A stretch of 42,962 nt of DNA from an uncultured Bacteroidota bacterium. GTDB taxonomy: Bacteria > Bacteroidota > Bacteroidia > Chitinophagales > Chitinophagaceae. The stretch is from contig CAISOH010000061.1 of the NCBI GenBank assembly GCA_903887005.1, positions 1 through 42,962 of the forward strand. Reading direction: 5' to 3'. The translations under genes were made by a program, and so were the position numbers. The notes beneath the pieces were generated by a model, which saw only the letters and a program-made list of their open reading frames with translations, did no database searches and was not told where the DNA came from. Shown here in pieces: positions 139-20,888 of the stretch (position 1 is the first letter of the stretch; the number at the start of each line of letters is the position of its first letter).

Positions 139-1443
139 ATGAGCTTGACAGAAACAGGTCGTTTATTACAAGATCCAATAAAAACCATGCAGGAAAAGAA
201 ATTGCGGGAACTATTATCCTATCTTGACAAATATTCTCCTTTTTATCAAAAGCTCTTTTTACAGCACAGGATTGATATAAATAAGATCAACAAACTTGAG
301 GACATTGTCATAATACCTACTACAAGTAAAGAAGACATTCAAATATATAGTGATAAATTTTTATGTGTTTCTCCTGAAAAAATCATAGAATATACTGCTA
401 CATCTGGCACTTTAGGTAGCCCGGTTACTATTTCCCTTACAGAAAATGACCTGGAGCGTCTTGCCTGTAATGAGTATAATTCTTTCTTAACAGCAAATGG
501 AACAGAACATGACATTTACCAGCTGATGCTTACACTTGACCGGCAATTTATGGCCGGGATAGCATATCATTCAGGAATTCGCAAACTGGGCGCAGGTATT
601 ATTCGGTTGGGACCGGGTGTGCCTTCTTTGCAATGGGAAACCATACAGCGGTTACGGCCAACCGCTATTGTGGCAGTGCCATCATTTATTTTAAAGCTAA
701 TCAGGTATGCGAAAGAGCATGACATTGATATGAACAGGTCTTCTGTAAAAAAAGCTATTTGTATCGGAGAAAACATACGTAATGTCAATCACTCATTAAA
801 TATTCTTGGTAAAAAAATTAAAGAAGCCTGGGATATAGACCTGTATTCTACCTATGCTTCTACCGAAATGCAAACCGCCTTTACTGAATGCACTGAAGGA
901 TGTGGCGGACACTACCAGCCTGAATTACTGATCCTTGAGCTACTGGATGAAAATGGCAAACAGGTAGCGGCCAATACGCCGGGAGAAGTGACCATTACCA
1001 CATTGGGAGTAGAAGGGATGCCGTTGTTGCGTTATAAAACAGGCGATATTTGTATGTATTTTGATGAGCCTTGCGCCTGCGGAAGAAATACATGGCGTCT
1101 TTCTTCTGTAATAGGGCGAAAAAAACAAATGATCAAGTTTAAAGGAACAACTCTTTATCCCCCTGCGCTTTTTGATCTGCTGAATGAGATGCAGGAAATA
1201 CTTGATTATGTTATAGAGATTTATAACAATGAAGTTGGCCTGGACGAGGTGTTATTATACCTGGTGCCAATTAATATAAGCGTAGAGACTGATAATAGAA
1301 TCAGAGGTTATCTACAGGCAAGGTTAAGGGTAAGCCCACATATACAATATGTCACCAATGAAGAAATACAAAAAATACAATTTCCGGAAATAGGTAGAAA
1401 AGCAGTTAAATTTGTTGATAAACGAATAAAACAAGAGGAATAG
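139..1443 (+). CDS. Adenylate-forming ligase, PaaK (phenylacetate-CoA ligase) family
   Basis: At 434 residues this has the size of the PaaK branch of AMP-forming ligases, which activate a carboxylic acid as an acyl-adenylate and pass it to CoA or a carrier protein. The nucleotide-binding loop reads TATSGTLGSPV near residues 86-96. The adenylate-contact segment reads YSTYASTEM near 239-247, followed by the cysteine-containing segment CTEGCGG. Further on are RYKTGD and the hinge region GRKKQMIKFKGTTLYP. The gene opens the operon, 79 bases before an aromatic amino acid ammonia-lyase. Activation of the cinnamate- or coumarate-type acid made by that enzyme is therefore the natural inference, as in flexirubin clusters. 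The exact substrate cannot be read from the sequence. Confidence 0.85.
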   Translation: MSLTETGRLLQDPIKTMQEKKLRELLSYLDKYSPFYQKLFLQHRIDINKINKLEDIVIIPTTSKEDIQIYSDKFLCVSPEKIIEYTATSGTLGSPVTISLTENDLERLACNEYNSFLTANGTEHDIYQLMLTLDRQFMAGIAYHSGIRKLGAGIIRLGPGVPSLQWETIQRLRPTAIVAVPSFILKLIRYAKEHDIDMNRSSVKKAICIGENIRNVNHSLNILGKKIKEAWDIDLYSTYASTEMQTAFTECTEGCGGHYQPELLILELLDENGKQVAANTPGEVTITTLGVEGMPLLRYKTGDICMYFDEPCACGRNTWRLSSVIGRKKQMIKFKGTTLYPPALFDLLNEMQEILDYVIEIYNNEVGLDEVLLYLVPINISVETDNRIRGYLQARLRVSPHIQYVTNEEIQKIQFPEIGRKAVKFVDKRIKQEE

Positions 1444-1458
1444 CAGGCTATAAGCCTG
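1444..1458 (+). other. Hairpin directly after the ligase stop codon
   Basis: CAGGCT-ATA-AGCCTG is a perfect 6-bp stem with a 3-base loop that begins on the base after the TAG stop. No T-run follows, so it is not a typical terminator. It may stabilise or partly attenuate the message between the ligase and the lyase. Confidence 0.35.
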
Positions 1459-1522
1459 GTATGCATTTTCAGACATTCACCATTTAATTTCGCTCCTTAA
1501 AACATTAAATAAATTTCAGCCA

Positions 1523-3085
1523 ATGATCGCTATTGGACAAAACATTCTTACTCTGCAGGATTTTGCTGATATACTGTTTAAGGAAAAGATGGTCATTTTA
1601 AATAAGCCAGACCTGGAAACGGTAGATATAAATTTTCGTTTTCTTAAAGATTTTTCTTCAAACAAATTAATTTACGGGATCAATACAGGCTTTGGCCCAA
1701 TGGCCCAATACAAAATCAGTAAAGAAAACCTTTTACAACTTCAGTATAACCTTATACGCAGCCATTGCTCCGGTAGCGGAGCGCTTTTGCCTGCACAGTT
1801 AGTAAAGGCATTAATGATTGCACGCTTAAACAGCCTGATGAAGGCGTATTCCGGTGTTCACACTGATGTCGTAATGTTGCTCAGGGAACTGATCAATAAT
1901 AATATCACTCCTTGTATTTATGAGCATGGAGGGGTAGGGGCCAGCGGAGACCTGGTGCAGCTTGCCCACCTGGGCTTAGTATTGATTGGTGAGGGAGAGG
2001 TTATATGGGAAGGACAGACCTACCCGGCTTTAGAAATATTCAGGCAGTTTGATATAAAACCGCTTACAATTTATATAAGAGAGGGATTAGCTGTTTTGAA
2101 TGGAACTTCTGCTATGACCGGTATCGGGTTAGTTAATATCATAAAGGCTAAAAAATTATTGGAATGGTCTGTGATATTGTCTGCTTTGATAAATGAGGTA
2201 ATGGAGGCTTTTGATGATCATTATTCATATGAATTAAATATTGTAAAGCATCACAGCGGCCAAAACAGGATATCAGCTATGATGCGGGAGATACTTAAGG
2301 ATAGTAAAATGATCCGTACCCGTTCTGAACATTTATACCAGTCTGAAAATCAAAACCAGGATATATACGAAGATAAAGTGCAGGAATATTATTCATTGCG
2401 TTGCATCACTCAAATCCTGGGGCCAGTGTATGATACTATACACCAGGCTGAAAAAATATTAGTGGACGAATTGAACTCTGTAAATGATAATCCTGTGATT
2501 GATCATGTGAACAAAAATGTATTTCACGGAGGCAATTTTCATGGCGATTATGTGTCACTGGAAATGGATAAACTGAAGATCGCTATCACTAAATTATCTA
2601 TGCTTTCAGAGCGACAGCTAAATTATCTGCTCAATGACAAGCTGAATCAAAAATTCCCTCCTTTTGTAAACCTTGGGGTATTGGGGTTTAATTTTGGTAT
2701 GCAGGGCATGCAGTTTACGGCCACATCTACGGTTGCAGAAAACCAGACGATGTCATTTCCTATGTATGTGCATAGTATTCCCAATAACAATGATAATCAG
2801 GATATAGTGAGTATGGGCTGCAATGCTGCTTTAATGACCAAAAAAATAATTGATAATTCATTTACTGTGCTGGGAATACAGGTAATGGCCCTATTGCAGA
2901 CTGTTGACTATTTAAATTGCCAGTCAAAATTGTCCGTTGTCACCCTATCTGTTTACACGGAAATGAGAAAAATTTTTCCGAAATTTATTGATGATCTTCC
3001 TAAATATAAAGACCTTCAAAAAGTTAAAAATTTCATGGAGGAGCCTGATAGTATTAATTCATTATACGCAAAAACCAAGTTATGA
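1523..3085 (+). CDS. MIO-type aromatic amino acid ammonia-lyase (HAL/TAL/PAL family)
   Basis: This is a full-length (520-residue) member of the family that removes ammonia from histidine, tyrosine or phenylalanine with the self-formed MIO cofactor. The cofactor triad Ala140-Ser141-Gly142 sits in GGVGASGDLVQLAHLG. The catalytic tyrosine loop YGINTGFGPM begins at residue 51. The selectivity segment reads Ser80-His81, where classical histidine lyases also have Ser-His and the Rhodobacter tyrosine lyase has His-Leu. Context (a PaaK-type ligase upstream, darA/darB and many ketosynthases downstream) argues for a tyrosine or phenylalanine lyase that makes the aryl starter of a polyene pigment rather than for histidine catabolism. 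No hutU, hutI or hutG gene is nearby. The gene overlaps the next by 4 bases (ATGA), so the two are probably translationally coupled. Confidence 0.88.
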   Translation: MIAIGQNILTLQDFADILFKEKMVILNKPDLETVDINFRFLKDFSSNKLIYGINTGFGPMAQYKISKENLLQLQYNLIRSHCSGSGALLPAQLVKALMIARLNSLMKAYSGVHTDVVMLLRELINNNITPCIYEHGGVGASGDLVQLAHLGLVLIGEGEVIWEGQTYPALEIFRQFDIKPLTIYIREGLAVLNGTSAMTGIGLVNIIKAKKLLEWSVILSALINEVMEAFDDHYSYELNIVKHHSGQNRISAMMREILKDSKMIRTRSEHLYQSENQNQDIYEDKVQEYYSLRCITQILGPVYDTIHQAEKILVDELNSVNDNPVIDHVNKNVFHGGNFHGDYVSLEMDKLKIAITKLSMLSERQLNYLLNDKLNQKFPPFVNLGVLGFNFGMQGMQFTATSTVAENQTMSFPMYVHSIPNNNDNQDIVSMGCNAALMTKKIIDNSFTVLGIQVMALLQTVDYLNCQSKLSVVTLSVYTEMRKIFPKFIDDLPKYKDLQKVKNFMEEPDSINSLYAKTKL

Positions 3086-3804
3086 AATGTGCTTTAGTTA
3101 CAGGTGGATCAAGGGGTATTGGCAGGGCAATATGTATTAAATTGGCCGCAATGGGGTATTATGTGCTGGTAAATTATAAAAGCAATGAACCGGAAGCTGC
3201 AGCTACACTTGAGTTTATAAAAAAAGATGCCGGTGATGGTGAATTATTGCAATTTGATGTTTCAAGTAAAGATCAGGTAGTGCAAAAACTGGGCAATTGG
3301 ATAGAAGCGAATGAAGAAAAATATATTGAAGTCCTGGTAAACAATGCAGGTATCAGGGATGATACACTGATGGTATGGATGCAGGATGAACAATGGGAGC
3401 AGGTAATAAAAACAAACCTGGACAGCTTTTTCTATGTTACCCGGCAAGTACTGAAAAGTATGATCTTTAAAAAGTATGGCAGGATTATCAATGTCGTTTC
3501 ACAATCAGGATTAAAAGGGTTGCCGGGGCAAACAAACTATTCTGCAGCTAAAGCCGGGGTGATAGGAGCTACAAGGTCCTTAGCTCAGGAAGTAGGCCGG
3601 CTGGGGATCACAGTTAACGCTGTGGCTCCGGGTTTCATAAAAACAGAAATGACACAGGATTTAGATGAAACAGCACTTCAAAAACTGATACCTGTCAGGC
3701 GTTTTGGACTGCCGGAAGAAGTAGCCTATGCCGTAGCATTCCTGGCATCGCCTGAGGCCGCATACATAACAGCTGAAGTATTATCTATTAACGGAGGACT
3801 ATAA
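3082..3804 (+). CDS. 3-oxoacyl-ACP reductase, FabG-like SDR
   Basis: This 240-residue short-chain dehydrogenase has the dinucleotide-binding motif TGGSRGIG at residues 7-14 and NNAG at 87-90. The catalytic set includes Asn112, Ser140 or Ser142, Tyr153 and Lys157 (NYSAAK). It would reduce the 3-keto group after each condensation with NADPH. It overlaps the lyase by 4 bases and lies 3 bases before a dehydratase. That places it as the ketoreductase of the polyene-building set, equivalent in role to the reductase of aryl polyene clusters. A housekeeping fabG elsewhere in the genome is likely, so the gene symbol is withheld. Confidence 0.88.
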   Translation: MKCALVTGGSRGIGRAICIKLAAMGYYVLVNYKSNEPEAAATLEFIKKDAGDGELLQFDVSSKDQVVQKLGNWIEANEEKYIEVLVNNAGIRDDTLMVWMQDEQWEQVIKTNLDSFFYVTRQVLKSMIFKKYGRIINVVSQSGLKGLPGQTNYSAAKAGVIGATRSLAQEVGRLGITVNAVAPGFIKTEMTQDLDETALQKLIPVRRFGLPEEVAYAVAFLASPEAAYITAEVLSINGGL

Positions 3805-3807
3805 CTT

Positions 3808-4230
3808 ATGGATCTTGCAGAAAATATATTGTCACTGATACCGCAACGTCATCCTTTTGTGATGATAAGCGAATTGCTGTACTCGGATCAACAGCTTACC
3901 CGGACGGGATTCCGCGTTAGTGAAGATAATATTTTTGTTGAGCATGGTAAATTTAATGAGGCCGGTTTATTAGAAAATATGGCACAAACCGCAGCTGCCG
4001 GCGCAGGGTATGCCGCGGGCATGGAAAACAGGCCAGTTGATATAGGTTATATAGGGGCAGTTAAAAATTTTGAAATATTTGAATTACCCGGGGTAAACGA
4101 TGAATTAATAACTGAAATAACAATTGAGAACAGGATATTTGATGTCACCGTAGTTGCAGGAAATATCTGGTGCAATAAAAAACTTATTGCCCGGTGCGAG
4201 CTTAAAATATTTATTAGGAAAATTAACTGA
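3808..4230 (+). CDS. Hotdog-fold 3-hydroxyacyl-ACP dehydratase (FabZ/ApeP-like)
   Basis: At 140 residues this is the normal length for a single hotdog dehydratase. The N-terminal PQRHPFVMI (His15) matches the PHRxPxLL motif of FabZ. Glu56 in AGLLENMAQ occupies the position of the catalytic acid. The loop between the central His46 and Glu56 is shorter than in standard FabZ, which separates it from the housekeeping enzyme. It would dehydrate 3-hydroxyacyl-ACP to the trans-enoyl-ACP. Because no reductase acts on polyene intermediates, the double bonds are kept. It sits between the ketoreductase and the first ketosynthase. Confidence 0.75.
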   Translation: MDLAENILSLIPQRHPFVMISELLYSDQQLTRTGFRVSEDNIFVEHGKFNEAGLLENMAQTAAAGAGYAAGMENRPVDIGYIGAVKNFEIFELPGVNDELITEITIENRIFDVTVVAGNIWCNKKLIARCELKIFIRKIN

Positions 4231-4258
4231 ATTCAGTGCATCTGAGAAATTATCCCGG

Positions 4259-5419
4259 ATGAATAAAATGATTCCAATGACTGATGTGTTTATCGCTGCT
4301 GATAATATTTTATCTCCGCTTGGTTATACAACTGCAGAAAACTATTCGCAGCTAAAAAAAAATGTTTCCGGTGTAAAGCTGCATAATAATACAGCTATGT
4401 CTGAAATGCCTTTTTATGCTGCACTATTTGAGCATAATAACTGGTATGTTAAGGATGAGCATATCAAATTTACAAAGTTTGAACAACTGCTTGCTGCATC
4501 TATAGCAAACGCTTTGCAGAATTGCAGTGTTGATACACGTGATAAATATACACTGCTCATCATTTCTTCCACAAAAGGGAACATAAGCCTGCTTGAAACG
4601 GAAGCAAAAAGCACTGAGCTGAAAGAAAGAATAGCACTGCATACTTCAGCAGGAATAATTGCCAGGCATTTTCATTTTGTAAATAAACCGGTGGTTATTT
4701 CCAATGCCTGCATTTCAGGTTTGCTTGGCATTTTAACCGGTATGCGGCTTATACGTTCAGGCCAATATAAAAATGTGGTTGTCGCAGGGGCGGATGTTGT
4801 TTCCAGATTTATTTTGTCTGGCTTTCAATCTTTTCAGGCAATCAGCTCTCAACAGTGCAAGCCATTTGATAAAGAGCGCGACGGAATTAACCTGGGTGAG
4901 GGTGCAGGAACCATAGTTCTTTCATCCGATACAATGTATGCCCGGAGTATTAAAGTAATGGGGGGAGGAACAAGCAATGATGCCAATCATATTTCCGGCC
5001 CTTCACGTTCCGGTGCAGAACTATACCAGGTAATAAAAAACACTTTGAAAGAGGCTAACCTGTCCCCAACTGATATTGATCTCATATCAGCACACGGCAC
5101 GGCTACCATTTATAACGATGAGATGGAAGCCAAGGCAATTTCACTGGCAGGAATGCAATCTGTGCCTGTAAATAGCCTGAAAGGATATTTTGGTCACACA
5201 TTAGGCGCAGCAGGGCTCATTGAATCCATTGTTACTATCCAGTCAATGAGGGAGAACACAGCATTGCCTACTAAAGGATTTCAAAATCACGGGGTATCAG
5301 AACCCATAAATATTTGTATTAATTTACAACAGGCTGAGCTGACAAACTGCCTGAAGACGGCATCTGGTTTTGGGGGTTGTAATGGCACGGTATTGTTTAG
5401 CAAAACATCAACGAATTAA
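4259..5419 (+). CDS. Beta-ketoacyl-ACP synthase, FabF-like, with complete triad (KS-A)
   Basis: This is a thiolase-fold ketosynthase of about 386 residues. Cys151 lies in NACISG, one catalytic His in SAHGTAT and the second in YFGHTLGAAG, so it should be a working condensing enzyme. GEGAG and the C-terminal SGFGGCNGT are also present. The open frame runs back to 4154 inside the dehydratase gene. The ATGs at 4259, 4268 and 4277 are better starts because they lie after the dehydratase stop; the one at 4277 gives the N-terminus most like the paralogue at 9768-10955. It is the least similar of the four complete ketosynthases to the others and is followed by a cysteine-less partner. Confidence 0.82.
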   Translation: MNKMIPMTDVFIAADNILSPLGYTTAENYSQLKKNVSGVKLHNNTAMSEMPFYAALFEHNNWYVKDEHIKFTKFEQLLAASIANALQNCSVDTRDKYTLLIISSTKGNISLLETEAKSTELKERIALHTSAGIIARHFHFVNKPVVISNACISGLLGILTGMRLIRSGQYKNVVVAGADVVSRFILSGFQSFQAISSQQCKPFDKERDGINLGEGAGTIVLSSDTMYARSIKVMGGGTSNDANHISGPSRSGAELYQVIKNTLKEANLSPTDIDLISAHGTATIYNDEMEAKAISLAGMQSVPVNSLKGYFGHTLGAAGLIESIVTIQSMRENTALPTKGFQNHGVSEPINICINLQQAELTNCLKTASGFGGCNGTVLFSKTSTN

Positions 5420-6056
5420 CCTTATAATTTATAGTACTTTGGTTATAGAAAAATATATCGCTGCAAGTTGTGTTATCAGCAGGAATGTAATTTTAAAAAA
5501 CGGAAAAAATATTTTCGAAAATAAGCATGCGGATTTGCATGATTTCCTCCTTTCTGTATATCAACATTTTAATATTGTCTATCCTAAATTTTATAAGATG
5601 GATAATCTAAGCAAGCTGGGATGGCTGGCTGCTGAGATATTGCTACAGGAATTTAGAAAAGATGATTACCGCCCGGAAGAAACCGGAGTAATATTGTCTA
5701 ATGCCAATGCAAGCCTTGATACTGATCTTAAGTATTTTGAAACGATAAAAGATATGCCAAGCCCTTCTTTGTTTGTTTATACCTTACCGAATATAGTGAC
5801 GGGAGAAATATGTATCAGGAATAACTTTAAGGGTGAGAATGCGTTTTTTGTTTCCGATCATTTTGATGCCGCATTTATAGAGCAATATGCAGGTAACCTC
5901 CTGGATCTTAATATATTGAACGTATGTATTTGCGGATGGGTTGATGTGTATGAAGAAACCTATAAAGCGGTTTTGTTTTTGGTTAAAAAAGAGAAAGAGG
6001 ATATTTTGTTTACAAAAGAGAATATGGACAGGATATATAAAACGGCTGTAACATAA
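5382..6056 (+). CDS. Short cysteine-less ketosynthase-like protein
   Basis: About 224 residues resembling the N-terminal half of beta-ketoacyl synthases (the ketoacyl-synt_2 type family). The segments GVILSNANASLDTD, PSPSLFVYTLPNIVTGE and ICIRNNFKGEN follow the ketosynthase order. Where the nucleophile Cys would be, the protein reads FKGENAFF, so it cannot act as a standard condensing enzyme. The C-terminal half with the two histidines is absent and the frame ends normally, so this is a family trait rather than a truncation. It probably partners KS-A, as chain-length factors do. The start is uncertain: ATGs at 5370 and 5382 lie inside the KS-A gene, and a non-ATG start near 5427-5439 would remove the overlap. 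Its stop overlaps the next ATG by one base. Confidence 0.65.
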   Translation: MARYCLAKHQRINLIIYSTLVIEKYIAASCVISRNVILKNGKNIFENKHADLHDFLLSVYQHFNIVYPKFYKMDNLSKLGWLAAEILLQEFRKDDYRPEETGVILSNANASLDTDLKYFETIKDMPSPSLFVYTLPNIVTGEICIRNNFKGENAFFVSDHFDAAFIEQYAGNLLDLNILNVCICGWVDVYEETYKAVLFLVKKEKEDILFTKENMDRIYKTAVT

Positions 6057-7273
6057 TGCAAATTTATAACAAGCACACACCTGTTTTTGTTGCAGGTACG
6101 GGGGTGATCTCAGCTATTGGCAACAATGTACCTGCGTGCCTTTATGCGCTCGAACATGAACAGGCTGGCATAGGTGAAATATCTTATCTCAGCACATTGC
6201 ACCGCCAGCAGATTCCTGTAGCAGAAGTTAAACTAAACAACAAGGAGCTTTCCTTACTTTCAGGCTTGCCTGCCGGAATCAGCCGTACAGCTTTGCTAAG
6301 CATGATCGCTGCCCGTGAAGCAATAGACAATGCAGCTATTGAAAATTTATCTGCATTACGGACAGGGCTCATTTCCGCTAACACCGTAGGTGGTATGGAT
6401 AAAAGCGAACAATTCTTTATTGATTTTCTTGCTGACCATACGAAAGGGAAATTGAGGGATATCGTCTATCACGAATGTGCTAGTGCAACCAAACTGGTAG
6501 CAGATCAATTAGGTATTCGCAGCTATGTCACCACAATTAGCACAGCTTGTTCTTCTTCTGCCAATGCTATTATGTATGGCGCAAGATTAATCAAGCATGG
6601 CATGCTGGATGTAGTAATTGCCGGTGGCGCTGATGCGATGACAAAGTTCACACTAAACGGATTTAATACCCTTATGATACTGGATAATGAATACTGCAAG
6701 CCTTTTGATGAGGACCGTAAAGGTCTAAACCTGGGGGAAGGCGCCGGATATGTAGTGCTTGTATCAGAAAAGGTAGCGGGATCCTTAAAATCGGATATCT
6801 ATTGTAAATTAAGCGGCTATTGCAATAAGAATGATGCTTATCACCAGACAGCTTCATCACCTGACGGCAAAGGTTCTTATCTCGCAATGAACGGCGCAAT
6901 AGAAAATAGTGGTTTAACACCGTCAGATATTGATTATATAAACCTGCACGGTACCGGCACTCAAAATAACGATCTGGCTGAAGGCACTGCTATAAAAAGA
7001 TTGTTTGAACCCCGTTATCCAAAAATGAGCTCTACTAAATCTTTCACAGGGCATACACTGGGGGCAAGCGGAGGCATTGAAGCGGTGTTTTCATCATTAT
7101 CTGCAAAGTATGGTCTCATTTATCCTAACCTTCGTTTTAAAACTCAGATGAAGGAATTGCCATTTATACCGGAAACTGCTTTTTCGAAAAATGAGCCGGT
7201 AAGACATGTGCTGTCTAATTCTTTTGGTTTTGGCGGTAATTGTTCTTCATTAATTTTTTCAAAAATTTCATGA
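6056..7273 (+). CDS. Beta-ketoacyl-ACP synthase, FabF-like, with complete triad (KS-B)
   Basis: This 405-residue ketosynthase has Cys165 in STACSSSANA, a His in NLHGTGTQNND and a His in FTGHTLGASGG, all at the expected spacing. GLNLGEGAGY and the glycine-rich C-terminus (NSFGFGGNCSS) are also present. It is closely related to KS-C on the opposite strand; the segment after the cysteine (IMYGARLIK) and the region around the GEGA motif are nearly the same. It overlaps the preceding stop (TAATG) and is followed by a cysteine-less partner whose start overlaps its stop. That is the arrangement of the ApeO/ApeC-type ketosynthase/chain-length-factor pair known from aryl polyene clusters. Confidence 0.9.
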   Translation: MQIYNKHTPVFVAGTGVISAIGNNVPACLYALEHEQAGIGEISYLSTLHRQQIPVAEVKLNNKELSLLSGLPAGISRTALLSMIAAREAIDNAAIENLSALRTGLISANTVGGMDKSEQFFIDFLADHTKGKLRDIVYHECASATKLVADQLGIRSYVTTISTACSSSANAIMYGARLIKHGMLDVVIAGGADAMTKFTLNGFNTLMILDNEYCKPFDEDRKGLNLGEGAGYVVLVSEKVAGSLKSDIYCKLSGYCNKNDAYHQTASSPDGKGSYLAMNGAIENSGLTPSDIDYINLHGTGTQNNDLAEGTAIKRLFEPRYPKMSSTKSFTGHTLGASGGIEAVFSSLSAKYGLIYPNLRFKTQMKELPFIPETAFSKNEPVRHVLSNSFGFGGNCSSLIFSKIS

Positions 7274-8334: not shown

Positions 8335-8349
8335 CATAAAAATAATACT

Positions 8350-9763: not shown

Positions 9764-9767
9764 ACCG

Positions 9768-10955: not shown

Positions 10956-10965
10956 TTATTGGAAT

Positions 10966-11229: not shown

Positions 11230-11242
11230 AATTATATATAAT

Positions 11243-13278: not shown

Positions 13279-14288
13279 TTTATTTTAGACAGGATTTCAA
13301 AAGCATACTTCTCCACTTCCGCTATTTCCAGCAGATAATCCCCCATTACATTAAAATCTGCCTGGCTACCTAATCTGCCTTTATATATACCTGCGGCCTG
13401 CACTGCTGCGGTACGCCACAGATCACCTGCGTTTGTGAAGGTTTCAGATGCCTGTAGCAGCTGACCATTATTATGATAGGCATTCGCTTCCTGCAAAAAG
13501 GCTGCATACATATAACGAAACCCACCACCACCTGTACCTATCTCTTCCTGCATACGTACCAGTTGGGCCAGGTATAATCCTGCTTTTTCCAATCCTAATT
13601 TATCGCGCCATTTTTTAATCCTGTTACCGGTATATTTTATTCCATGCAAACCGCTTATAAACCCCGGGAAGGTGAGCATGCTGAATACATTCCTTTTAAT
13701 ACCAGTTTTTATAGCATCCTTTATCGTTTCATCATTTACTATATGTTTTTTTACAGGATAATAAAGCTGTCCTTTAGGAGCTAACGCACCTTTTGCAAAT
13801 CTTACCCGCTCCAGTTCATAGGTGGTTAAAGTAGTTACTGTTTCCATAATGGGGTCACTGATCAGGTACTTATCCGCTTCTTTGCCATAAACAATTAAAT
13901 TATGGGCATTGAAATGAAACCGGTATTGTTTCGGGAAATAAGGTAAATAATAAACGCCTACCTGGCAGCCCACTGCGTAACCATCTGTAAGGCTTTTGTC
14001 CAAGGCTTTTTGCGCATCTTCTTTTGATCTGAATTTTTTGCGGACTATATTAACACCAAGTGAATCGCATGTTTTAGAAAAAATATGACCCGGCAATGTG
14101 CGGAAAGCTATAGCAGGCCCGTTATTTATTTTTAGTAATGGAATATAAGCAAAAAACAAACCCGAGCCTATGCCAAAAGCTAAAGGCTCTGTCATCTTAT
14201 CTATGCCTATGCCCCTTAATAAATTAGTAGTAACACCTGTTTCACAATGTGCGGCCTGTATGTGCTTAAAGTCATTGCTCATGCCCAT
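13269..14288 (-). CDS. BtrH N-terminal-domain protein (DUF4872-type), putative acyltransferase
   Basis: This 339-residue protein has an N-terminal AHCETGVTTNLLRGIG segment (His14-Cys15-Glu16), the hallmark of the BtrH_N family. The central region (YFPKQYRFHFNAHNLIVYG) and the helical C-terminal half fit the associated DUF4872 domain. BtrH of butirosin biosynthesis moves a gamma-glutamyl-AHBA acyl group from a carrier protein to an aminoglycoside. By analogy this protein could move a carrier-bound polyene acyl group to a hydroxyl acceptor such as a dialkylresorcinol. That is inference; only the fold family and the position between DarB and the exporter are seen. It overlaps genes on both sides. 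Confidence 0.72.
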   Translation of the reverse strand: MGMSNDFKHIQAAHCETGVTTNLLRGIGIDKMTEPLAFGIGSGLFFAYIPLLKINNGPAIAFRTLPGHIFSKTCDSLGVNIVRKKFRSKEDAQKALDKSLTDGYAVGCQVGVYYLPYFPKQYRFHFNAHNLIVYGKEADKYLISDPIMETVTTLTTYELERVRFAKGALAPKGQLYYPVKKHIVNDETIKDAIKTGIKRNVFSMLTFPGFISGLHGIKYTGNRIKKWRDKLGLEKAGLYLAQLVRMQEEIGTGGGGFRYMYAAFLQEANAYHNNGQLLQASETFTNAGDLWRTAAVQAAGIYKGRLGSQADFNVMGDYLLEIAEVEKYAFEILSKIKWH

Positions 14289-14679
14289 TCATATTTTTAA
14301 GTTCAGCCGGTGTTATGTCAAAAACTTCTGCATATCTCTTCAACTTTTTGTCAGTTAACTTCTTAAATCCCTTTGGCGTTAAATGTCTCTTTATCTGCCA
14401 TTTCCAAAAGCCGGTATAGCCTGCTAAAATATTAATATCCATAAGCCCTTTTTCCATAAAAAAAAGTAATGGGCTTGCTTCATTGTTTACTATTTTTTCT
14501 TTAGCGGCGGCTATGCGCTTTTCAATATCCTGCCATGCTGTATCCAGCGCAGTTATTTTTATATCCCAACCTTTACTCAGTTCCGTAACGTATTTGCCGG
14601 ATCTATCTGTAGCATAGCAAACTTCTTTGGTAACCTTGCCGAGCGCACTCATGTCCTGCGGCACATCCTCTTTTTTCAT
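14272..14679 (-). CDS. Small protein with HTH-like C-terminus, function unknown
   Basis: A 135-residue soluble protein not recognised by name. The N-terminal half is charged and helical (TAWQDIEKRIAAAKEKI), suggesting a short coiled coil. The C-terminal 60 residues, from MDINILAGYTGFWKWQIKRH to LKRYAEVFDITPAELKN, follow the helix spacing of a Cro/C1-type helix-turn-helix. It overlaps the BtrH-like gene by 17 bases and lies 34 bases after DarB, so it belongs to the operon. It may be a local regulator or an adaptor for the BtrH-like protein; neither is proven. Confidence 0.6.
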   Translation of the reverse strand: MKKEDVPQDMSALGKVTKEVCYATDRSGKYVTELSKGWDIKITALDTAWQDIEKRIAAAKEKIVNNEASPLLFFMEKGLMDINILAGYTGFWKWQIKRHLTPKGFKKLTDKKLKRYAEVFDITPAELKNMNGHEQ

Positions 14680-14713
14680 ATAAAGAGATTAAATGATAAA
14701 CAGCCATCCGTTA

Positions 14714-15877
14714 TCAACAAACTTTTAGCATAGCATACATATACGAAAAACGGGCACTTTCGGGCACAAGCAACAGGATATTTTCTCCTTTTTTTAATTT
14801 GCCGCTATGAAACAGTTCATGCACCATAAGATATACAGAGGCAGCGCCAACATTGCCCATACTGCTTAGATTAAGGAACCATTTCTCATAAGGGACATTT
14901 TTCCCCAGCACAGACATTATTTCGAAGATCTTGCTTTTGAAAAATTCGCTGGAAATATGTGGCAAAAAATAGTCAACATCGTCAACATCAAGCCCCCTCC
15001 GGTCAAATATCTCTTTTATTTTTTTGCCGCCAAGCACTATTATATTATTGCTTAATAAAGTAATATCCTGCTTTATACTAAAAATTGAATTAGCCATGAT
15101 CTCATCCGGCGTATAGTCCAAATAGCTTTTCAGCATACCGTCAGGTAACTTGTCAGCGCCCATGTACATACATGTCTTCATTTCATTGGCATACGATACG
15201 CCTTCTATCCATTCTATCCTCAGGCTTATCCCATTTTCATTTGGTTGATCCGCCATCAGGAAGGCGGCAGCGCCGTCAGACAGCATCCAGCGCAGGAATT
15301 CCTTCTCAAACGCTACATATTTGTTTTCGTCCAGCTCTTTTAATTTTTTCGACTCCTCCTCAAAAACATTCGAAACAAGTGAGCCTGAAAATCTTTCTGA
15401 GCCCGTAGCTACGGCTAGTTTCACATCTCCTGTTTTAATTGCCATATACGCATACTTCATTGCGTGCATACCAGCGCAGCATACGCCGGCAGGAGATACC
15501 ACTTCAATAGACCGGGTGCCTGGCAGCCAGCCATGCACCATTACGCCATGTGAAGGCATCATCTGATCTGGTGAAGAGGTACCGCAGGATAATAATTCTA
15601 TACCTGCTAACTGTTCTTCAGTATCATTGTCAAATAATGCTTTTACCGCAAGGGCGGTCATTTCAGCATTAGTATGTGTAGCTTTTCCATCTTTTGATAA
15701 GGCATAATACCTGGTTTTTATACCATTGTTCCTTAAAACGATTTCTTTAGATTTGGAAGGTTTACCATTTATAAAACCAAGATATAATTCCATGTCATCA
15801 TTTGGAACTGCTTCATTCGGAAGAAAAATAGAGGTATTGGTTATATAAACATCGTTAGCAAGCCTGTCTGTTCTCAT
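14714..15877 (-). CDS. darB: DarB-like ketosynthase III, dialkylresorcinol-forming
   Basis: This 387-residue protein has the KAS III layout. A Cys pair lies in SPAGVCCAGMHA (Cys134 is the likely nucleophile), the His in YFLPHISSEFF and the Asn in LSSMGNVGAAS. It is longer than housekeeping FabH and starts with a distinct N-terminal segment. Its start codon shares a base with the stop of the DarA-like gene, and the two are paired in dialkylresorcinol and flexirubin clusters. There DarB condenses two beta-keto or enoyl thioester chains into a cyclohexanedione that DarA aromatises. The name rests on pairing with DarA and on motifs, not on an alignment. Confidence 0.78.
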   Translation of the reverse strand: MRTDRLANDVYITNTSIFLPNEAVPNDDMELYLGFINGKPSKSKEIVLRNNGIKTRYYALSKDGKATHTNAEMTALAVKALFDNDTEEQLAGIELLSCGTSSPDQMMPSHGVMVHGWLPGTRSIEVVSPAGVCCAGMHAMKYAYMAIKTGDVKLAVATGSERFSGSLVSNVFEEESKKLKELDENKYVAFEKEFLRWMLSDGAAAFLMADQPNENGISLRIEWIEGVSYANEMKTCMYMGADKLPDGMLKSYLDYTPDEIMANSIFSIKQDITLLSNNIIVLGGKKIKEIFDRRGLDVDDVDYFLPHISSEFFKSKIFEIMSVLGKNVPYEKWFLNLSSMGNVGAASVYLMVHELFHSGKLKKGENILLLVPESARFSYMYAMLKVC

Positions 15878-16776
15878 TAGTTTAAATTTAAAATAGATTC
15901 TTTTTGTTTTCTGATGTACTTATGTAAAAAAGGCTTAAAAAAAAGCTGATCAATTACATATACGATTGGCGCAGCTATAAATAGCGAAATTAACAGATAA
16001 TATTTAAATGCTGTAAGCCAGGCAGTCTTATTTTGCTTCTTTGAAATAATTTTGGCCCATGCCTTAAACATAACACCGGCTTTTGATTCAATGAATATTA
16101 AATGATATTTTAAGTCCATTGCATTTTTATCCATTAGCGCAGCCTGCAGTCCACCCCATTCGTTTTTTTCAATATAAGGAATTGCGATCCTGCCAAAGAT
16201 TCCGGTGTTTGCTATATCTTCATCAGACACGCCTGGTTTAGGAAAAATATTAAGGTATTTATCCTTTTTATTATGAAGCATCCAATGAAAAATAGTAACA
16301 ATGCTTACCAGGTTCAGATTTTTATCTACTAATGATATATTGCCGGCCAATTTAGCTCCTGATTCCTTTAATATATTTTTCACCCCTTTGTAAGCATTTA
16401 CCCACATATTTCTTGCCCCGGTAATGGTGATAACAGGTGTATTCTTTAAAACCTGCTGCACAGATGGATGATGTACAAAAGAATTAAAAGGAATACTGGG
16501 CGACAGGAACCAGGCCTGGTACCCTAAAATAATTAAATCATACGATGTTTCCTTAAGTACAAAAGGATTAATATCTGCCGGTACACCTAAAACACAATCG
16601 GGCATTACACTGAAAAAGCCGTCAGCGGTCCAGGGAAGAATATGCTCGTTTTGTAGGGTTATTTCCACTTTTTCTACAGAAATTCCTGTTTCAATAAGCG
16701 GTTGGCAAAAATTATCTATGATATCCTTTAACTGACCCGATTGCGAATAATAAATGGCTAATGCTTTTTTACTCAT
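15877..16776 (-). CDS. darA: DarA-like dialkylresorcinol biosynthesis enzyme, flavodoxin-like
   Basis: The 299-residue protein starts with a flavodoxin-like phosphate-binding segment, IYYSQSGQLKDI at residues 8-19, as in the DarA family of Bacteroidota. A long hydrophobic helix near residues 254-275 (YYLLISLFIAAPIVYVIDQL) is followed by a lysine- and arginine-rich tail, so the protein is probably membrane-anchored. DarA acts with DarB to oxidise and aromatise the cyclic intermediate to a 2,5-dialkylresorcinol. The gene overlaps the upstream small exported protein by 4 bases and touches darB by one base, giving tight coupling. Confidence 0.8.
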   Translation of the reverse strand: MSKKALAIYYSQSGQLKDIIDNFCQPLIETGISVEKVEITLQNEHILPWTADGFFSVMPDCVLGVPADINPFVLKETSYDLIILGYQAWFLSPSIPFNSFVHHPSVQQVLKNTPVITITGARNMWVNAYKGVKNILKESGAKLAGNISLVDKNLNLVSIVTIFHWMLHNKKDKYLNIFPKPGVSDEDIANTGIFGRIAIPYIEKNEWGGLQAALMDKNAMDLKYHLIFIESKAGVMFKAWAKIISKKQNKTAWLTAFKYYLLISLFIAAPIVYVIDQLFFKPFLHKYIRKQKESILNLN

Positions 16777-17279
16777 TCTGTTGCAAATATAAGATTTTCC
16801 GGATGCAATATTTTTGAGGTTTTGCTGTAATCAAGAACTGCATGTTGCACAACGGGTGGTAATTTTCTGAAATATTTCTGAATATACCGGCTGTCATCAG
16901 GAAGACGGGAATGGTATTTTACAATTTTGGGCGCATGCTCCTCTATCATAAGGCGCAAAAAGTGATACTCTACATTACTGCTGTCTGAAGCAAGAGCTGT
17001 CTCCAACTTTATCCTTCCTGCTTTGAATAAACTTAACTTATCTTTTGGCAACGAAACCAAATCGGCTTTTTTCATTAGTAATGTCCCTATGTACGCATTC
17101 TTCTCAATTATTGTGCCAACAGATAATAATGCTATTTCATTGTCAATTTCATCAGCACTTCCGGACTTCAAAATGCTGTAGAATGCCTGCCTGTCAAAGT
17201 TTTGAAATAATGGCGAGCCTTCTATATCTTTGGCATTCATAAAAATTGATAGAAATAAAATAAATATTTTCGATTTCAT
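16773..17279 (-). CDS. Small exported protein of unknown function, first gene of the dar operon
   Basis: A 168-residue protein not recognised by name. The first residues (MKSKIFILFLSIFMNA) look like a short signal peptide without a lipobox. The rest is helical and mixed in charge, with no cysteines and no repeats. The motif NVEYHFLRLMIEEHAPKI suggests a helical repeat or scaffold. It overlaps darA by 4 bases, so it is co-translated with it and is likely to take part in pigment biosynthesis or placement at the envelope. It is the first gene of the 8.6-kb minus-strand operon. Confidence 0.65.
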   Translation of the reverse strand: MKSKIFILFLSIFMNAKDIEGSPLFQNFDRQAFYSILKSGSADEIDNEIALLSVGTIIEKNAYIGTLLMKKADLVSLPKDKLSLFKAGRIKLETALASDSSNVEYHFLRLMIEEHAPKIVKYHSRLPDDSRYIQKYFRKLPPVVQHAVLDYSKTSKILHPENLIFATE

Positions 17280-17385
17280 AATGCTTTTAAAATAGAATCG
17301 GAAATAAAGATAAGGAATATAATAAGTTTTCCGGTTGATCCAGGCAAGTGACAGGTGATCATCAATATATTTAATTCATTTTAGA
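17280..17385. promoter_or_regulatory. Divergent intergenic region of the middle and right operons
   Basis: About 106 bases separate the minus-strand dar operon from the plus-strand reductase operon, so two promoters should lie here. Only weak matches to TAnnTTTG are visible: TATATTTA at 17366-17373 on the plus strand and TATCTTTA on the minus strand. No clear operator palindrome was seen. Confidence 0.35.
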
Positions 17386-18204
17386 GTGGATAACAGAGAG
17401 CAGTTTATCGGGTTGTGGGGTGTAATATTAGGAGGCTCAAGTGGTTTTGGGTTTGCCGCCATAGAAAAACTTGCCCTTCATGGCATGAATATTGTTATGT
17501 TATTCAGGGAAACTGCAGGTGTTGAAAAAGTGCTTAATGAAAAAATTTCACTGATTACGGCTAAATCTGATGTAAAAATTTTGCTTATTAATGCCAATGC
17601 TTTGAACGAAGCAGGAAGAGATCTTTTTCTTGAAAAATTTAAGGAAACCGTTGGAAAAGATGGAAAAATACGCCTATTGCTACATTCAATAGCAAGGGGT
17701 AATTTGAAACCATTAGTATCGGGGGGGGTATCTGATAATGATTCTGGTGAAATGCTTTCTATTGAAGATATTCAACTTACCACTTACGCTATGTCTAACA
17801 GTATATTGGACTGGACCAGAATGCTCTTAAAAGAAGGCCTCTTTTATAAGGATGCCAGGGTTATAGGCATAACAAGTGAGGGAACTCATAAATACTGGGA
17901 TAGCTATGCTGCCGTATCCATAGCCAAAGCGTCGCTTGAAAGCCTTGCAACATATATGGCTGTCGAATTTGCAACATATGGCCTGAAGACAAACCTGATA
18001 CAAGCAGGAATCTCGGAAACACCTTCATTGAAAAAAATACCTGGTAGTAAAGAGCTGCTTCAAATAGCAAAAACCAGGAATCCTATGGGAAGAATAACAA
18101 CACCCGAAGATGTGGCAAATGTTATTTACTTATTGTGCACAGACGAAGCTTCATGGATTAATGGATCAGTTATTCACGCAGACGGAGGGGAACACTGCCG
18201 TTAA
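17386..18204 (+). CDS. Enoyl-ACP reductase-like SDR (FabI type, Y-x6-K)
   Basis: The 272-residue protein begins with GTG; no upstream in-frame ATG exists. The dinucleotide-binding motif is ILGGSSGFG at residues 14-22. The active-site motif is Tyr174-x6-Lys181 (YAAVSIAK), the spacing typical of FabI enoyl reductases rather than the Y-x3-K of ketoreductases. The C-terminal ITTPEDVANVIYLLCTDEASWINGSVIHADGG is also family-like. The N-terminal motif is unusual for FabI, whose loop is normally GIAxxxSIAxG. It would saturate trans-2-enoyl-ACP and so supply alkyl rather than polyene chains, fitting a role in the resorcinol half of the product. Confidence 0.78.
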   Translation: MDNREQFIGLWGVILGGSSGFGFAAIEKLALHGMNIVMLFRETAGVEKVLNEKISLITAKSDVKILLINANALNEAGRDLFLEKFKETVGKDGKIRLLLHSIARGNLKPLVSGGVSDNDSGEMLSIEDIQLTTYAMSNSILDWTRMLLKEGLFYKDARVIGITSEGTHKYWDSYAAVSIAKASLESLATYMAVEFATYGLKTNLIQAGISETPSLKKIPGSKELLQIAKTRNPMGRITTPEDVANVIYLLCTDEASWINGSVIHADGGEHCR

Positions 18205-18219
18205 TTTATTACAAAAAAC

Positions 18220-18690
18220 ATGTATCAATATATATTAGACCATTTACCCAATAAATCTTCGTTCCGCTTTGTTGATAATATATCATCTTTAGACGAAAAT
18301 GGAATTACAGGGGACTATACTTTGAGGGAAAATGCTTTTTTTTATGAAGATCATTTTATCGGTAATCCGGTTACGCCCGGAGTAATTCTTACTGAAATAA
18401 TGGCCCAGATAGGATTGCAGTCATTAGGTATATATCTTATTCTGAATGGATTAAAAGAAATTAAGAAAGATGGGGACAGGACTTTGTTTCCTTTACTAAC
18501 TGCCACTGATGTTTCTTTTTATAAAATAGTATTACCGGGACAAAAGGTGACAGTAATATCTAAAAAAGAATTTTTTCGTTTCGGTAAGCTTAAATGCTAT
18601 GTTGAAATGCTGGATGAAAATAAAGACTTAGTTGCAAAAGGGATGTTAGCCGGAATAATCAAGGGCGCTGCAAAAACTAAATTATCATGA
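18220..18690 (+). CDS. 3-hydroxyacyl-ACP dehydratase, FabZ-like
   Basis: This 156-residue hotdog protein has both catalytic positions: His45 in EDHFIGNPVTPGV and Glu59 in LTEIMAQIG, at the FabZ spacing of 14. It is the most canonical of the three dehydratase-like proteins here. It follows the enoyl reductase by 15 bases and overlaps the next ketosynthase by 4 bases. With those two and an ACP it forms a nearly complete extra fatty-acid elongation set; the ketoreductase would come from 3082-3804 or from the housekeeping pool. Confidence 0.82.
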   Translation: MYQYILDHLPNKSSFRFVDNISSLDENGITGDYTLRENAFFYEDHFIGNPVTPGVILTEIMAQIGLQSLGIYLILNGLKEIKKDGDRTLFPLLTATDVSFYKIVLPGQKVTVISKKEFFRFGKLKCYVEMLDENKDLVAKGMLAGIIKGAAKTKLS

Positions 18691-19967
18691 ATCGTCGTGT
18701 AGTAATTACTGGTTTAGGAGTTGTTGCGCCCAATGGCACCGGGATACCGGATTTTTTACAGGCTATTCAAAATGGTGTTTCCGGCATTCGGTTTAATCCT
18801 CAGTATGAAGCTCTTAACTTCAATTGCCAGGTTAGTGGTGTACCTGTTTTTGAATGGAACCATCTTGAAAATTATGTTACTGAAGTCAGCTTTCATGGAT
18901 TAAAGGGGCAAGGAATAGGTTATGCCATTAAAGCGGCGCTGGATGCATGGACAGACGCAGGAAATACCTTTGATACTGAAAATGATACTCATTGGGATAC
19001 CGGCTGTGTTTTTGGCAACAGCGTATCTGACACCTCAGTAATAAAAAATATCATTGCCCGTGTAGATGCCAAAGAAGCTAAAAAATTAGGTTCCCGTGTT
19101 ATAGAACAGGTTATGAACAGTGGTGCTACTGCCTATATTTCCGGACGATTGGGATTGGGGAATAAAGTAATCACTAATTCCGCTGCCTGCGCTACCGGGT
19201 CGCAAGCCGTTTTAATGGGATATGAGTATATAAAGTATGGCATGGCAAAGCGTATGCTTGTAGGAAGTACAGAGCATGTTGATCCCTATATTTTTGGCGC
19301 TTTTGACTCCATGCGTGTTTTATCAAGAAAATTCAACTCTGTTCCAGGGCAGGCTTCAAGGCCCATGAGCGCAACCGCAGGAGGATTTATTCCCGGATCA
19401 GGTGCAGGTGCATTAGTACTTGAGGATCTTGATTTTGCGCTTGCGCGCGGGGCTTCTATATATGCCGAAATATTAGGCGGGGCCAATAATTCCGGCGGCC
19501 AGAGGAATGGTGGGTCTATGACTGCACCAAATAATGAGGGCGTTATTAAATGTATAGAGGATGCCATAACAAATTCAAATGTAAACCCTCATGATATAGA
19601 CTTGATCAGTGGCCATTTAACGGCTACCCTGGCGGATAAAATGGAGATACGCAATTGGGTTGCGGCATTGGGTACAGATAGCAGTAAGTTCCCGCTTACT
19701 AATTCATTAAAGTCAATGACAGGGCATTGCCTGAGCGCTGCCGGATCTATAGAATGCATTGCAGTTGCATTGCAGATATTTCACCAGTTCATACATCCCA
19801 ATATTAATCTTGAAGACCCAAATCCTGAAATAGTTGAAATGACAGGTATGGATGCTCTTCCAACAGCGTGCATAAAAAAAGAAATAAATATAGTTGCAAA
19901 AGCTAATTTTGGCTTTGGCGATGTTAATACATGTTTAATATTTTCAAAATTCAGAAACAATGGATAG
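18687..19967 (+). CDS. Beta-ketoacyl-ACP synthase, FabF-like, with complete triad (KS-D)
   Basis: This 426-residue ketosynthase has Cys168 in NSAACATGSQA, a His in SGHLTATLAD and a His in MTGHCLSAAGS. The second motif reads GHLTAT rather than the usual AHGTAT but keeps the histidine. It begins MNRRVVITGLGVV and ends with AKANFGFGDVNTC. It is clearly a different lineage from KS-B and KS-C and has no cysteine-less partner beside it, so a homodimer is expected. It overlaps the dehydratase by 4 bases and the ACP by 8 bases. Confidence 0.88.
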   Translation: MNRRVVITGLGVVAPNGTGIPDFLQAIQNGVSGIRFNPQYEALNFNCQVSGVPVFEWNHLENYVTEVSFHGLKGQGIGYAIKAALDAWTDAGNTFDTENDTHWDTGCVFGNSVSDTSVIKNIIARVDAKEAKKLGSRVIEQVMNSGATAYISGRLGLGNKVITNSAACATGSQAVLMGYEYIKYGMAKRMLVGSTEHVDPYIFGAFDSMRVLSRKFNSVPGQASRPMSATAGGFIPGSGAGALVLEDLDFALARGASIYAEILGGANNSGGQRNGGSMTAPNNEGVIKCIEDAITNSNVNPHDIDLISGHLTATLADKMEIRNWVAALGTDSSKFPLTNSLKSMTGHCLSAAGSIECIAVALQIFHQFIHPNINLEDPNPEIVEMTGMDALPTACIKKEINIVAKANFGFGDVNTCLIFSKFRNNG

Positions 19968-20220
19968 ACAATCAATTTTAGAAGAACTTAAAAGAGTACT
20001 CACTCCCTATACTGCCAACAAAGAAGATCTGAATTCTATTAATGACGATACAGACCTGATAAAAGATTTGAAAATTAATTCAGCAAACCTTATTGACATT
20101 ATCATTGATGCGGAAGCAAAGTATGGTATAGAAATAGATGCGGATTCGGCAGAGAAGATGAGCAACGTAGGAAGCTGTATAAATGTGATCATTGAAAAGA
20201 TGCAGCAAAAAGAAGGATGA
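19960..20220 (+). CDS. Acyl carrier protein, second copy
   Basis: This 86-residue protein has ACP helix spacing and the attachment segment DLKINSANLIDI, with Ser41 as the probable phosphopantetheine site. The usual Asp before the serine is Asn here, an uncommon but tolerated change. It overlaps KS-D by 8 bases and the phosphopantetheinyl transferase by 4 bases. It likely serves KS-D, the FabZ-like dehydratase and the enoyl reductase. It is clearly different in sequence from the ACP at 10966-11229, which suggests two separate carrier pools. Confidence 0.82.
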   Translation: MDRQSILEELKRVLTPYTANKEDLNSINDDTDLIKDLKINSANLIDIIIDAEAKYGIEIDADSAEKMSNVGSCINVIIEKMQQKEG

Positions 20221-20888
20221 GTACAGGAAATGATATTATTTCATTAGAGCATATTAATGTTCAGCGTACAAAACAGAAGCAGTTCTATGATAAAATTCTG
20301 TCTCCTTCTGAACTGGAGCTTTATAATACTGAGGCTATTGCTGAAATGCCCTTTGAAATTTTTGTATGGTTGGCCTGGTCAGTAAAAGAGTCGGCATATA
20401 AATACCTGAAAAGGCATACGCCCGGTCTTCGGTTCTCACCTGCCAAAATAAATATTCATAGCATTACCCCCCCCGGAAGTTATACCATTAAAAAATTCGG
20501 ATATCTTCAATATGAAAAAAAATCATTTCATGAAGAAGTTGTTTATCATGGTACGGTTCGTTACGGGGCTGCTTTTTTTCATTCAAGTTCTATAATTCAT
20601 CATGAGCTAATATATACTGTAGTCAATAAGGATGAATCATTCGGGAATTTATGGTGGGGAATTAAAACTATAGGATTTAGCGATCATAATCATCAGTCAG
20701 CAGAGGTCAGAGCGTTTCTATTAAAGAGATTGCATGCCATTTTGCCGGATCACAACCTGACCATAGATAATAGCACCGGCGGTTTTCCGGTAATATTAAA
20801 TGAAAGAAAAGAAATGGATATTCCGGTTTCATTTACACATCACCATCACTTTATCGCTTATTCCTTTTTATCAGGCGATTCTTATTAA
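20217..20888 (+). CDS. 4'-phosphopantetheinyl transferase, Sfp-like
   Basis: This 223-residue protein has the two signature motifs of the superfamily. Asp6 in GNDIISLEH binds magnesium, and WSVKESAYKY (Trp54, Lys57, Glu58, Lys62) is the WxxKExxxK motif. It would move phosphopantetheine from CoA to the serine of the ACPs. A run of histidines (FTHHHHF) lies near the C-terminus. It overlaps the ACP gene by 4 bases and closes the biosynthetic cluster; the next gene is 497 bases away. Confidence 0.87.
   Translation: MSTGNDIISLEHINVQRTKQKQFYDKILSPSELELYNTEAIAEMPFEIFVWLAWSVKESAYKYLKRHTPGLRFSPAKINIHSITPPGSYTIKKFGYLQYEKKSFHEEVVYHGTVRYGAAFFHSSSIIHHELIYTVVNKDESFGNLWWGIKTIGFSDHNHQSAEVRAFLLKRLHAILPDHNLTIDNSTGGFPVILNERKEMDIPVSFTHHHHFIAYSFLSGDSY

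Follow-up and report, generated by a model that had tools for sequence, protein, structure and literature searches.

Why would a single pigment locus hold three pairs of a ketosynthase (KS) and a cysteine-less partner? Flexirubins are a chemotaxonomic marker of the Bacteroidota, and a first-pass annotation had placed a cluster for them at positions 139-20888 of the stretch analyzed here, a window of 42,962 nucleotides that is the entire contig CAISOH010000061.1 of an uncultured Chitinophagaceae bacterium (assembly GCA_903887005.1; 5.96 Mb, 453 contigs, completeness given as 99.8%). That annotation measured the three pairs against the one main pair of aryl polyene (APE) clusters, took them to be unusual, and suggested a separate machine for each of three tasks. 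Our answer is a different one. The locus is almost certainly of the flexirubin type (aryl polyene plus dialkylresorcinol), and we think it is probably best explained as three adjoining operons for a flexirubin-type compound, the last of which, a small cassette, supplies the resorcinol chains.

Three operons of a flexirubin-type locus

The cluster consists of three tightly packed operons. The polyene operon (139-8727, plus strand) meets the dar operon (8693-17279, minus strand), their ends overlapping by 35 bases at the 3′ end of the latter, and the dar operon diverges across 106 bases (17280-17385) from the cassette operon (17386-20888, plus strand). All frames are intact, many overlapping by 1 to 50 bases, and the order and gene set recur in relatives well beyond chance. 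Using a Pfam scan of the 26 proteins of 139-23496 and NCBIfam scans of the cluster proteins, with an E-value of 0.001 as the limit, we recovered the gene inventory as first annotated, in open frames within 139-20888: four complete ketosynthases, three cysteine-less partners, DarB, three dehydratase-like proteins, one ketoreductase, one enoyl reductase (ER) and two acyl carrier proteins (ACPs). The flx letters that we use outside the curated families are assigned by gene order.

The pathway type, too, was correctly called, as six proteins score above curated NCBIfam cut-offs. Three are at the head of the polyene operon: FlxY, a putative 4-coumarate CoA ligase (139-1443; NF053551, 652 bits, cut-off 520), FlxA, a tyrosine ammonia-lyase (1523-3085; NF053541, 838 bits, cut-off 700), and FlxB, a ketoreductase with a Y-x3-K motif (3082-3804; NF053542, 385 bits, cut-off 340). 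The other three belong to the dar operon: DarB, similar to ketoacyl-ACP synthase III (14714-15877; NF053539, 616 bits, cut-off 550), DarG (14272-14679; NF053545, 191 bits, cut-off 170) and DarH, a BtrH-related acyltransferase (13269-14288; NF053550, 451 bits, cut-off 300). The window thus has FlxA and FlxY equivalogs, DarB, DarG and DarH beside DarA, and a KS/partner, ketoreductase and dehydratase set for the polyene. FlxC and the classic export and tailoring genes are absent from it; they are usual in flexirubin loci, yet outside the chemical definition.

The assignment of darA and darB to dialkylresorcinol families holds for DarB by its family score. DarA (15877-16776, minus strand) matches no Pfam or NCBIfam family, and we name it by its place beside darB and by 37% identity to the gene adjoining darB in Chitinophaga pinensis and C. 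tropicalis. Its matches in plasmid annotation are three from Streptomyces, every one a 'hypothetical protein', and no name was gained from them. Homologues of darA occur in 27 of 149 genomes sampled from the class and in 90 of 294 sampled from the family. The dar operon further holds, all on the minus strand, a conserved first gene (16773-17279) that keeps this place in many dar operons and has no counterpart in the C. pinensis stretches compared, the ATPase (12520-13278; Pfam ABC_tran) and membrane subunit (11243-12523; Pfam ABC2_membrane_3) of an ABC transporter, and ACP1 (10966-11229; Pfam PP-binding; NCBIfam NF006617, 73.9 bits, cut-off 70).

Ketosynthases and their partners

The ketosynthases, all with Pfam matches (ketoacyl-synt for KSa), are KSa (flxI-type, 4265-5419, plus strand, with an alternative TTG start at 4154), KSb (flxN-type, 6056-7273, plus strand), KSc (9768-10955, minus strand) and the unpaired KSd (18687-19967, plus strand). 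In an alignment that includes the FabF of this genome and, from E. coli CFT073, ApeR and ApeO, all four keep the catalytic cysteine, both histidines and the lysine. In the same alignment the cysteine and both histidines are missing from CLFb (flxO-type, about 7276-8334, plus strand) and from CLFc (8693-9763, minus strand), which adjoins KSc at the end of the dar operon. Both are similar to chain-length factors (CLFs; Pfam Ketoacyl-synt_2). The model of CLFc, with a mean predicted local distance difference test (pLDDT) score of 89.7, has a full KS fold, and the best Protein Data Bank chain for CLFb is 7f28_A, which we take to be ApeC, at just 25 bits. CLFa (flxL-type, 5370-6056, plus strand; 228 amino acids) has no match in Pfam or in NCBIfam at E 0.001. 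Its model has a mean pLDDT of 88.6 and its best fold matches are ketosynthase/chain-length-factor entries (AntDE, actinorhodin, ishigamide); judged from that model, CLFa is a half-length protein of the KS fold, and not a complete KS relative.

A phylogeny of all KS and CLF proteins had been proposed as a check, and it gives the four ketosynthases clades of their own. In the KS tree (135 rows), the 39 KSa rows form one clade with support 100 and the 15 KSc rows another with support 99, while 44 of 46 KSb rows group with support 98, the rows of G411 and G242 lying outside both b and c. The CLF tree separates the b and c partners with support 100. Because the partners split as the ketosynthases do, the pairs were probably duplicated as units. 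KSd of the compact type makes up a clade of 12 rows (support 100), separate from an FlxC clade of 20 (support 100). We had considered KSd as the FlxC orthologue, and the separate clades rule that out.

Is the number of pairs unusual?

Not when compared with the right system. C. pinensis has the characterized flexirubin cluster; our comparison uses loci L099, L229 and L244 of strain YS-16, the published strain being DSM 2588. FlxC, FlxI, FlxL, FlxN and FlxO are described as putative synthases of the DSM 2588 flx locus (passages of PMC3992019), and by gene order they correspond to FlxC, KSa, CLFa, KSb and CLFb. L099 carries these five genes, with KSa to CLFb and the homologues of the first two dehydratase-like genes, DH1 and DH2, ordered as in the window, and L229/L244 carries darA, darB, darG, darH and the ABC genes followed by an ACP, a KS and a partner, again like the window. 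The two loci together, which are what the count covers, hold four ketosynthases and three partners. These are the window's totals, and a three-pair count is therefore ordinary: it was APE clusters that made a poor yardstick.

There are differences. C. pinensis has two loci where the window has one, and its loci include FlxC and thioesterase, methyltransferase, halogenase-like, LolA, deacetylase, glycosyltransferase, exporter and AAT-like genes. Within about 11 kb beyond darA, strain YS-16 has no homologue of the cassette's ER, third dehydratase (DH3), second ACP (ACP2) or phosphopantetheinyl transferase (PPTase). In the partner tree, the KS and partner at the dar end belong to another lineage than KSc/CLFc, so the dar-end pair arose or was exchanged more than once.

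An APE cluster is a KS/partner set not known to include dar genes; since dar genes are present, we do not file the window as APE. None are annotated in the stretch read from E. coli CFT073. APE clusters (ApeO/ApeC, ApeR) resemble the window in having a KS with a cysteine-less partner, an unpaired KS, two dehydratases and two ACPs (passages of PMC8253772 and PMC8358021), and differ in having one KS/partner pair and a 4-hydroxybenzoate starter. In clusters that we guess to be from Flavobacterium (G101, G065, G021), the dar genes lie inside the polyene cluster in one locus, as in the window; the stretches read have no KSc/CLFc and no cassette, FlxC is present in G101 and G065, and G101 has LolA-, exporter- and acyltransferase-like frames. 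Two other records, L159 and L176, are titled Beijerinckiaceae and Alphaproteobacteria and carry a Bacteroidota-type flexirubin cluster; they are possibly misbinned contigs.

Are the pairs separate machines?

The first-pass annotation suggested separate machines for starter extension, polyene length and the resorcinol chain, or else a product with more than one polyene length. We consider three such specialized machines unlikely. KSa, KSb and KSc are indeed distinct lineages, with b and c partners split likewise; the c pair stands last in the dar operon of many genomes; and the C. pinensis dar genes also end with a KS and a partner. But relatives can be without b or without c. CLFb-family genes are found in 96 of the 294 family genomes and CLFc (E 1e-110 or better) in 34, the c pair being part of the compact loci of the window, G200, G241, G180, G219 and G420. 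G114 and G207 have a b pair and no c pair in the stretches read, and G420 (98% complete) lacks the b pair, DH2 abutting CLFa, and keeps KSa/CLFa and KSc/CLFc.

The same picture comes from a second set, the best 80 of 536 relatives fetched by CLFb alignment (our named loci), 52 of them with two or more classic accessory genes and 28 with fewer, several of the 28 being short records. By tblastn, ACP1 follows DH2 without an intervening c pair in 16 of these 28, and two (L146, L151) have the c pair at that place. KSa and CLFa are found in 23 of the 28 (CLFa also being seen in L123, L127, L129 and L139); of the remaining five, three break off near KSb (L117, L146, L153) and two have CLFb and DH2 but no KSb (L113, L172). 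KSa/CLFa is thus retained wherever the loci cover the polyene operon, while b or c can be absent and the rest of the locus kept, and this is what speaks against three obligatory machines. As relatives may lack either b or c, we lean toward the b and c pairs overlapping in role rather than being separate machines.

Several observations temper this reading. The loss of b with c kept is seen in one genome only, G420. Of the 34 genomes with CLFc, 22 have it no more than 12 kb from darA, six further off and six on another contig, which leaves more than one role possible for the c pair. The genomes sampled are relatives and not independent of each other, so that Fisher values on the distances to darA serve as description only, and the trees came from quick searches, with long reference branches joined in those of the KS. 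As for KSc/CLFc being strictly a dar-only pair, that candidate is rejected: in G210 the c pair sits at the polyene locus, which also counts against the three machines, and 12 of the 34 genomes do not have CLFc within 12 kb of darA.

Arrays of another kind exist too: five loci from metagenome-assembled genomes (L145, L158, L162, L176, L177) have tandem KSb-CLFb-KSb-CLFb arrangements.

A compact layout

What sets the window apart is its layout. It is a single compact locus without FlxC, export and tailoring genes, and with a cassette of ER, dehydratase (DH), KS, ACP and PPTase. None of 11 classic export and tailoring queries matches in the window at E 1e-5, nor does AcpS, and the FlxC query finds KSd as its sole match there, at 31%. 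Could the missing genes be elsewhere? Across the whole genome, the exporter query gives at best a partial match of 34 bits, the lipid-A-type acyltransferase query a weak partial match of 23 bits, and the AAT-like query nothing at an E-value of 1, an empty answer without a positive control; for FlxC, the single strong ketoacyl-synt match beyond the cluster ketosynthases is FabF-like and on another contig (C431). The genome-wide search covered these four, and thioesterase, methyltransferase, halogenase-like, LolA, deacetylase and glycosyltransferase genes were sought in the window alone. Gaps in a 453-contig assembly could hide genes. The contig ends at base 1, and only 139 bases before the cluster start at flxY; past FlxY in G200, G114 and G241 there is just an AcpS gene or unrelated frames.

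One might read the compact locus as a decaying or silent remnant that makes no pigment, with none of the 11 genes nor FlxC in the window and those weak or empty genome-wide answers. We find this improbable, as its frames are intact and tightly packed, active-site residues are kept, and the compact set is seen again in loci of Mucilaginibacter and Chitinophagaceae. Among the best 80 of 536, Mucilaginibacter accounts for 15 of the 28 low-accessory loci versus five of the 52 classic ones, and KSd is found in 11 of the 28, all eleven also having DarB. The compact Mucilaginibacter loci (L118 of M. corticis, L131, L133 of M. phenanthrenivorans, L140, L142 and others) have the same three operons where the record suffices and the same cassette, and lack the classic accessory genes, as does the window; unlike the window, they have no KSc/CLFc between DH2 and ACP1.

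A limited literature search found no description of a compact locus with the cassette, and no paper title naming Mucilaginibacter turned up for pigment tests (titles only). Flexirubin clusters fall into at least five families in a survey of 600 Bacteroidetes genomes, and the compact type may belong to one of these, although the passages at hand give no gene content for families lacking a reference cluster (passages of PMC9248904). The same passages report no flexirubin cluster in the survey's two Saprospiria strains; we see a flexirubin-type polyene cluster in a Saprospiria member, on plasmid pAUEa of Aureispira anguillae (6065-21165; L180).

TAnnTTTG is the Bacteroidota promoter pattern. The divergent dar and cassette operons are separated by 57 to 361 bases in 18 loci of like layout, the window included, and the pattern is present in eight of these 18 stretches and absent from that of the window. 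A promoter and terminator scan of 20700-21500 gave nothing above chance. At the far end of the window, a frame of 174 amino acids with a secreted-looking start (42438-42962) runs into the contig end.

What does the cassette serve?

The cassette operon encodes, all on the plus strand, ER, an enoyl-ACP reductase-like short-chain dehydrogenase/reductase (17386-18204; Pfam adh_short_C2), DH3 (18220-18690; Pfam FabA), KSd, ACP2 (19960-20220; Pfam PP-binding, with the serine in 24 of 24 homologues) and, closing it, a 4'-phosphopantetheinyl transferase (20217-20888; Pfam ACPS). A Y-x6-K spacing is that of enoyl reductases and Y-x3-K that of ketoreductases; tyrosine and lysine have the former spacing in all 27 homologues of ER and the latter in all 35 of FlxB. 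An enoyl reductase is ill-suited to a conjugated polyene and fits saturated resorcinol chains.

Of the three dehydratase-like proteins, DH3 keeps both histidine and glutamate in 32 of 32 homologues. In DH2 (flxS-type, 8350-8727, plus strand; Pfam FabA) the histidine is kept in 86 of 86 and glutamine replaces the glutamate in 81 of 86, and DH1 (flxF-type, 3808-4230, plus strand; FabZ matches far under cut-off) has Glu56 in 69 of 69 homologues and no conserved histidine. By these residues, DH1 and DH2 look like the two halves of a single polyene dehydratase, and APE systems have paired dehydratase subunits (passages of PMC8358021). With complementary halves of an active site in DH1 and DH2, the three dehydratase-like genes probably amount to two activities, DH3 being the cassette's own.

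What company does the cassette keep? KSd relatives (E 1e-100 or better) occur in 23 of the 294 family genomes; counting the window, 12 of these have an identity of 66% or more. darA is present in all 12, versus 90 of 294 overall, and nine of the 12 have the cassette no further than 12 kb from it. G154 and G210 have the cassette beside the dar operon and the KSb/CLFb locus, with LolA-type and classic accessory genes, elsewhere, an arrangement that links the cassette with dar.

In five genomes (G153, G322, G319, G149, G246) a sister cassette lies next to a type III polyketide synthase (PKS) gene, and in the first three of these it follows FAD-oxidoreductase, methyltransferase and type III PKS genes, an alkylresorcinol-type operon. 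In G153, one of these three, CLFb does not differ from the CLFb of C. tropicalis (L098). Operons of methyltransferase, FAD-oxidoreductase and type III PKS genes from Planctomycetota make alkylresorcinols in heterologous tests (passages of PMC10896814), the ring being formed by the type III PKS where the window has DarA/DarB. The Pfam scan finds no type III PKS (chalcone-synthase-type domain) among the 26 proteins of 139-23496, and over that stretch the window does not match an alkylresorcinol cluster of that kind.

From this evidence, we think it likely that the cassette feeds the resorcinol half. To that extent the idea of separate machines survives: the resorcinol chain would have machinery of its own, in the form of the unpaired KSd with DH, ER, ACP and PPTase, and not of a KS/partner pair.

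The alternative is that the cassette serves the polyene, KSd replacing FlxC and ER trimming or ending the chain. Compact cassette loci lack an FlxC gene, an observation that is partly definitional as FlxC was used in calling loci classic, and in the first KS tree KSd and FlxC are both on the ApeR side. In vitro, initiation reportedly needs ApeR (passages of PMC8253772). Still, KSd groups apart from FlxC in the trees, conjugation would be lost to an enoyl reductase, G154 and G210 have the cassette by dar and the polyene genes elsewhere, the polyene locus of G210 has its own FlxC (73% over the last part), and the main APE lipid is still seen in E. coli lacking apeR (passages of PMC8253772). All this makes the polyene a decidedly unlikely destination.

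Feeding of the resorcinol half remains our preference, with some points to be set against it. The cassette is away from the dar operon in G207; the arrangement is hidden in G252, with cassette and darA each at a contig end, and in G289, with its short contig. Six cassette relatives have no type III PKS in the stretches read (G222, G339, G370, G332 and G212, about 20 kb each, and G292, about 4 kb), so the match of cassette and resorcinol is not exclusive. And ApeR, reported as needed for initiation in vitro, is the APE protein closest to FlxC and KSd, so that KSd may yet have a part in the polyene.

In G370 (L220), G332 (L221) and G212 (L222), KSd relatives stand as tandem pairs by a DH3-like gene, in unlike neighborhoods; perhaps these are another small type II system.

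A proposed pathway

In C. pinensis, FlxA converts tyrosine to 4-coumarate, FlxY activates it, and darB and darA together join two acyl chains into a dialkylresorcinol; in the literature at hand these are the only flexirubin steps that were tested directly (passages of PMC3992019). In the window, FlxA would make 4-coumarate from tyrosine and FlxY would activate it. KSa/CLFa with KSb/CLFb may then extend the starter on ACP1, KSc/CLFc being probably a paralogous second elongating pair, also on ACP1. FlxB would reduce, and a DH1-DH2 heterodimer with complementary halves of a FabZ-like active site would dehydrate; without enoyl reduction in the polyene operon, the double bonds would stay. KSd, DH3, ER, ACP2 and PPTase may act as a small fatty-acid synthase without a ketoreductase of its own, handing saturated acyl chains to DarB, which with DarA would join two of them into the dialkylresorcinol. 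For the ester with the polyene, DarH is the likeliest remaining enzyme, a role to which we give slightly less than an even chance.

More tentatively, a portable acyl-supply cassette may have joined two unrelated systems, DarA/DarB and type III PKS, within one family, decoupling resorcinol chain length from membrane lipid synthesis, and the compact locus may lead to an untailored flexirubin-like ester, formed by DarH and placed in the cell without LolA/MMPL-type export. A compact variant without FlxC, exporter and AAT-like genes narrows the candidates for essential flexirubin genes and puts DarH forward for the ester step. And if the cassette is indeed an acyl-supply unit, it may help predict which chains resorcinol clusters use.

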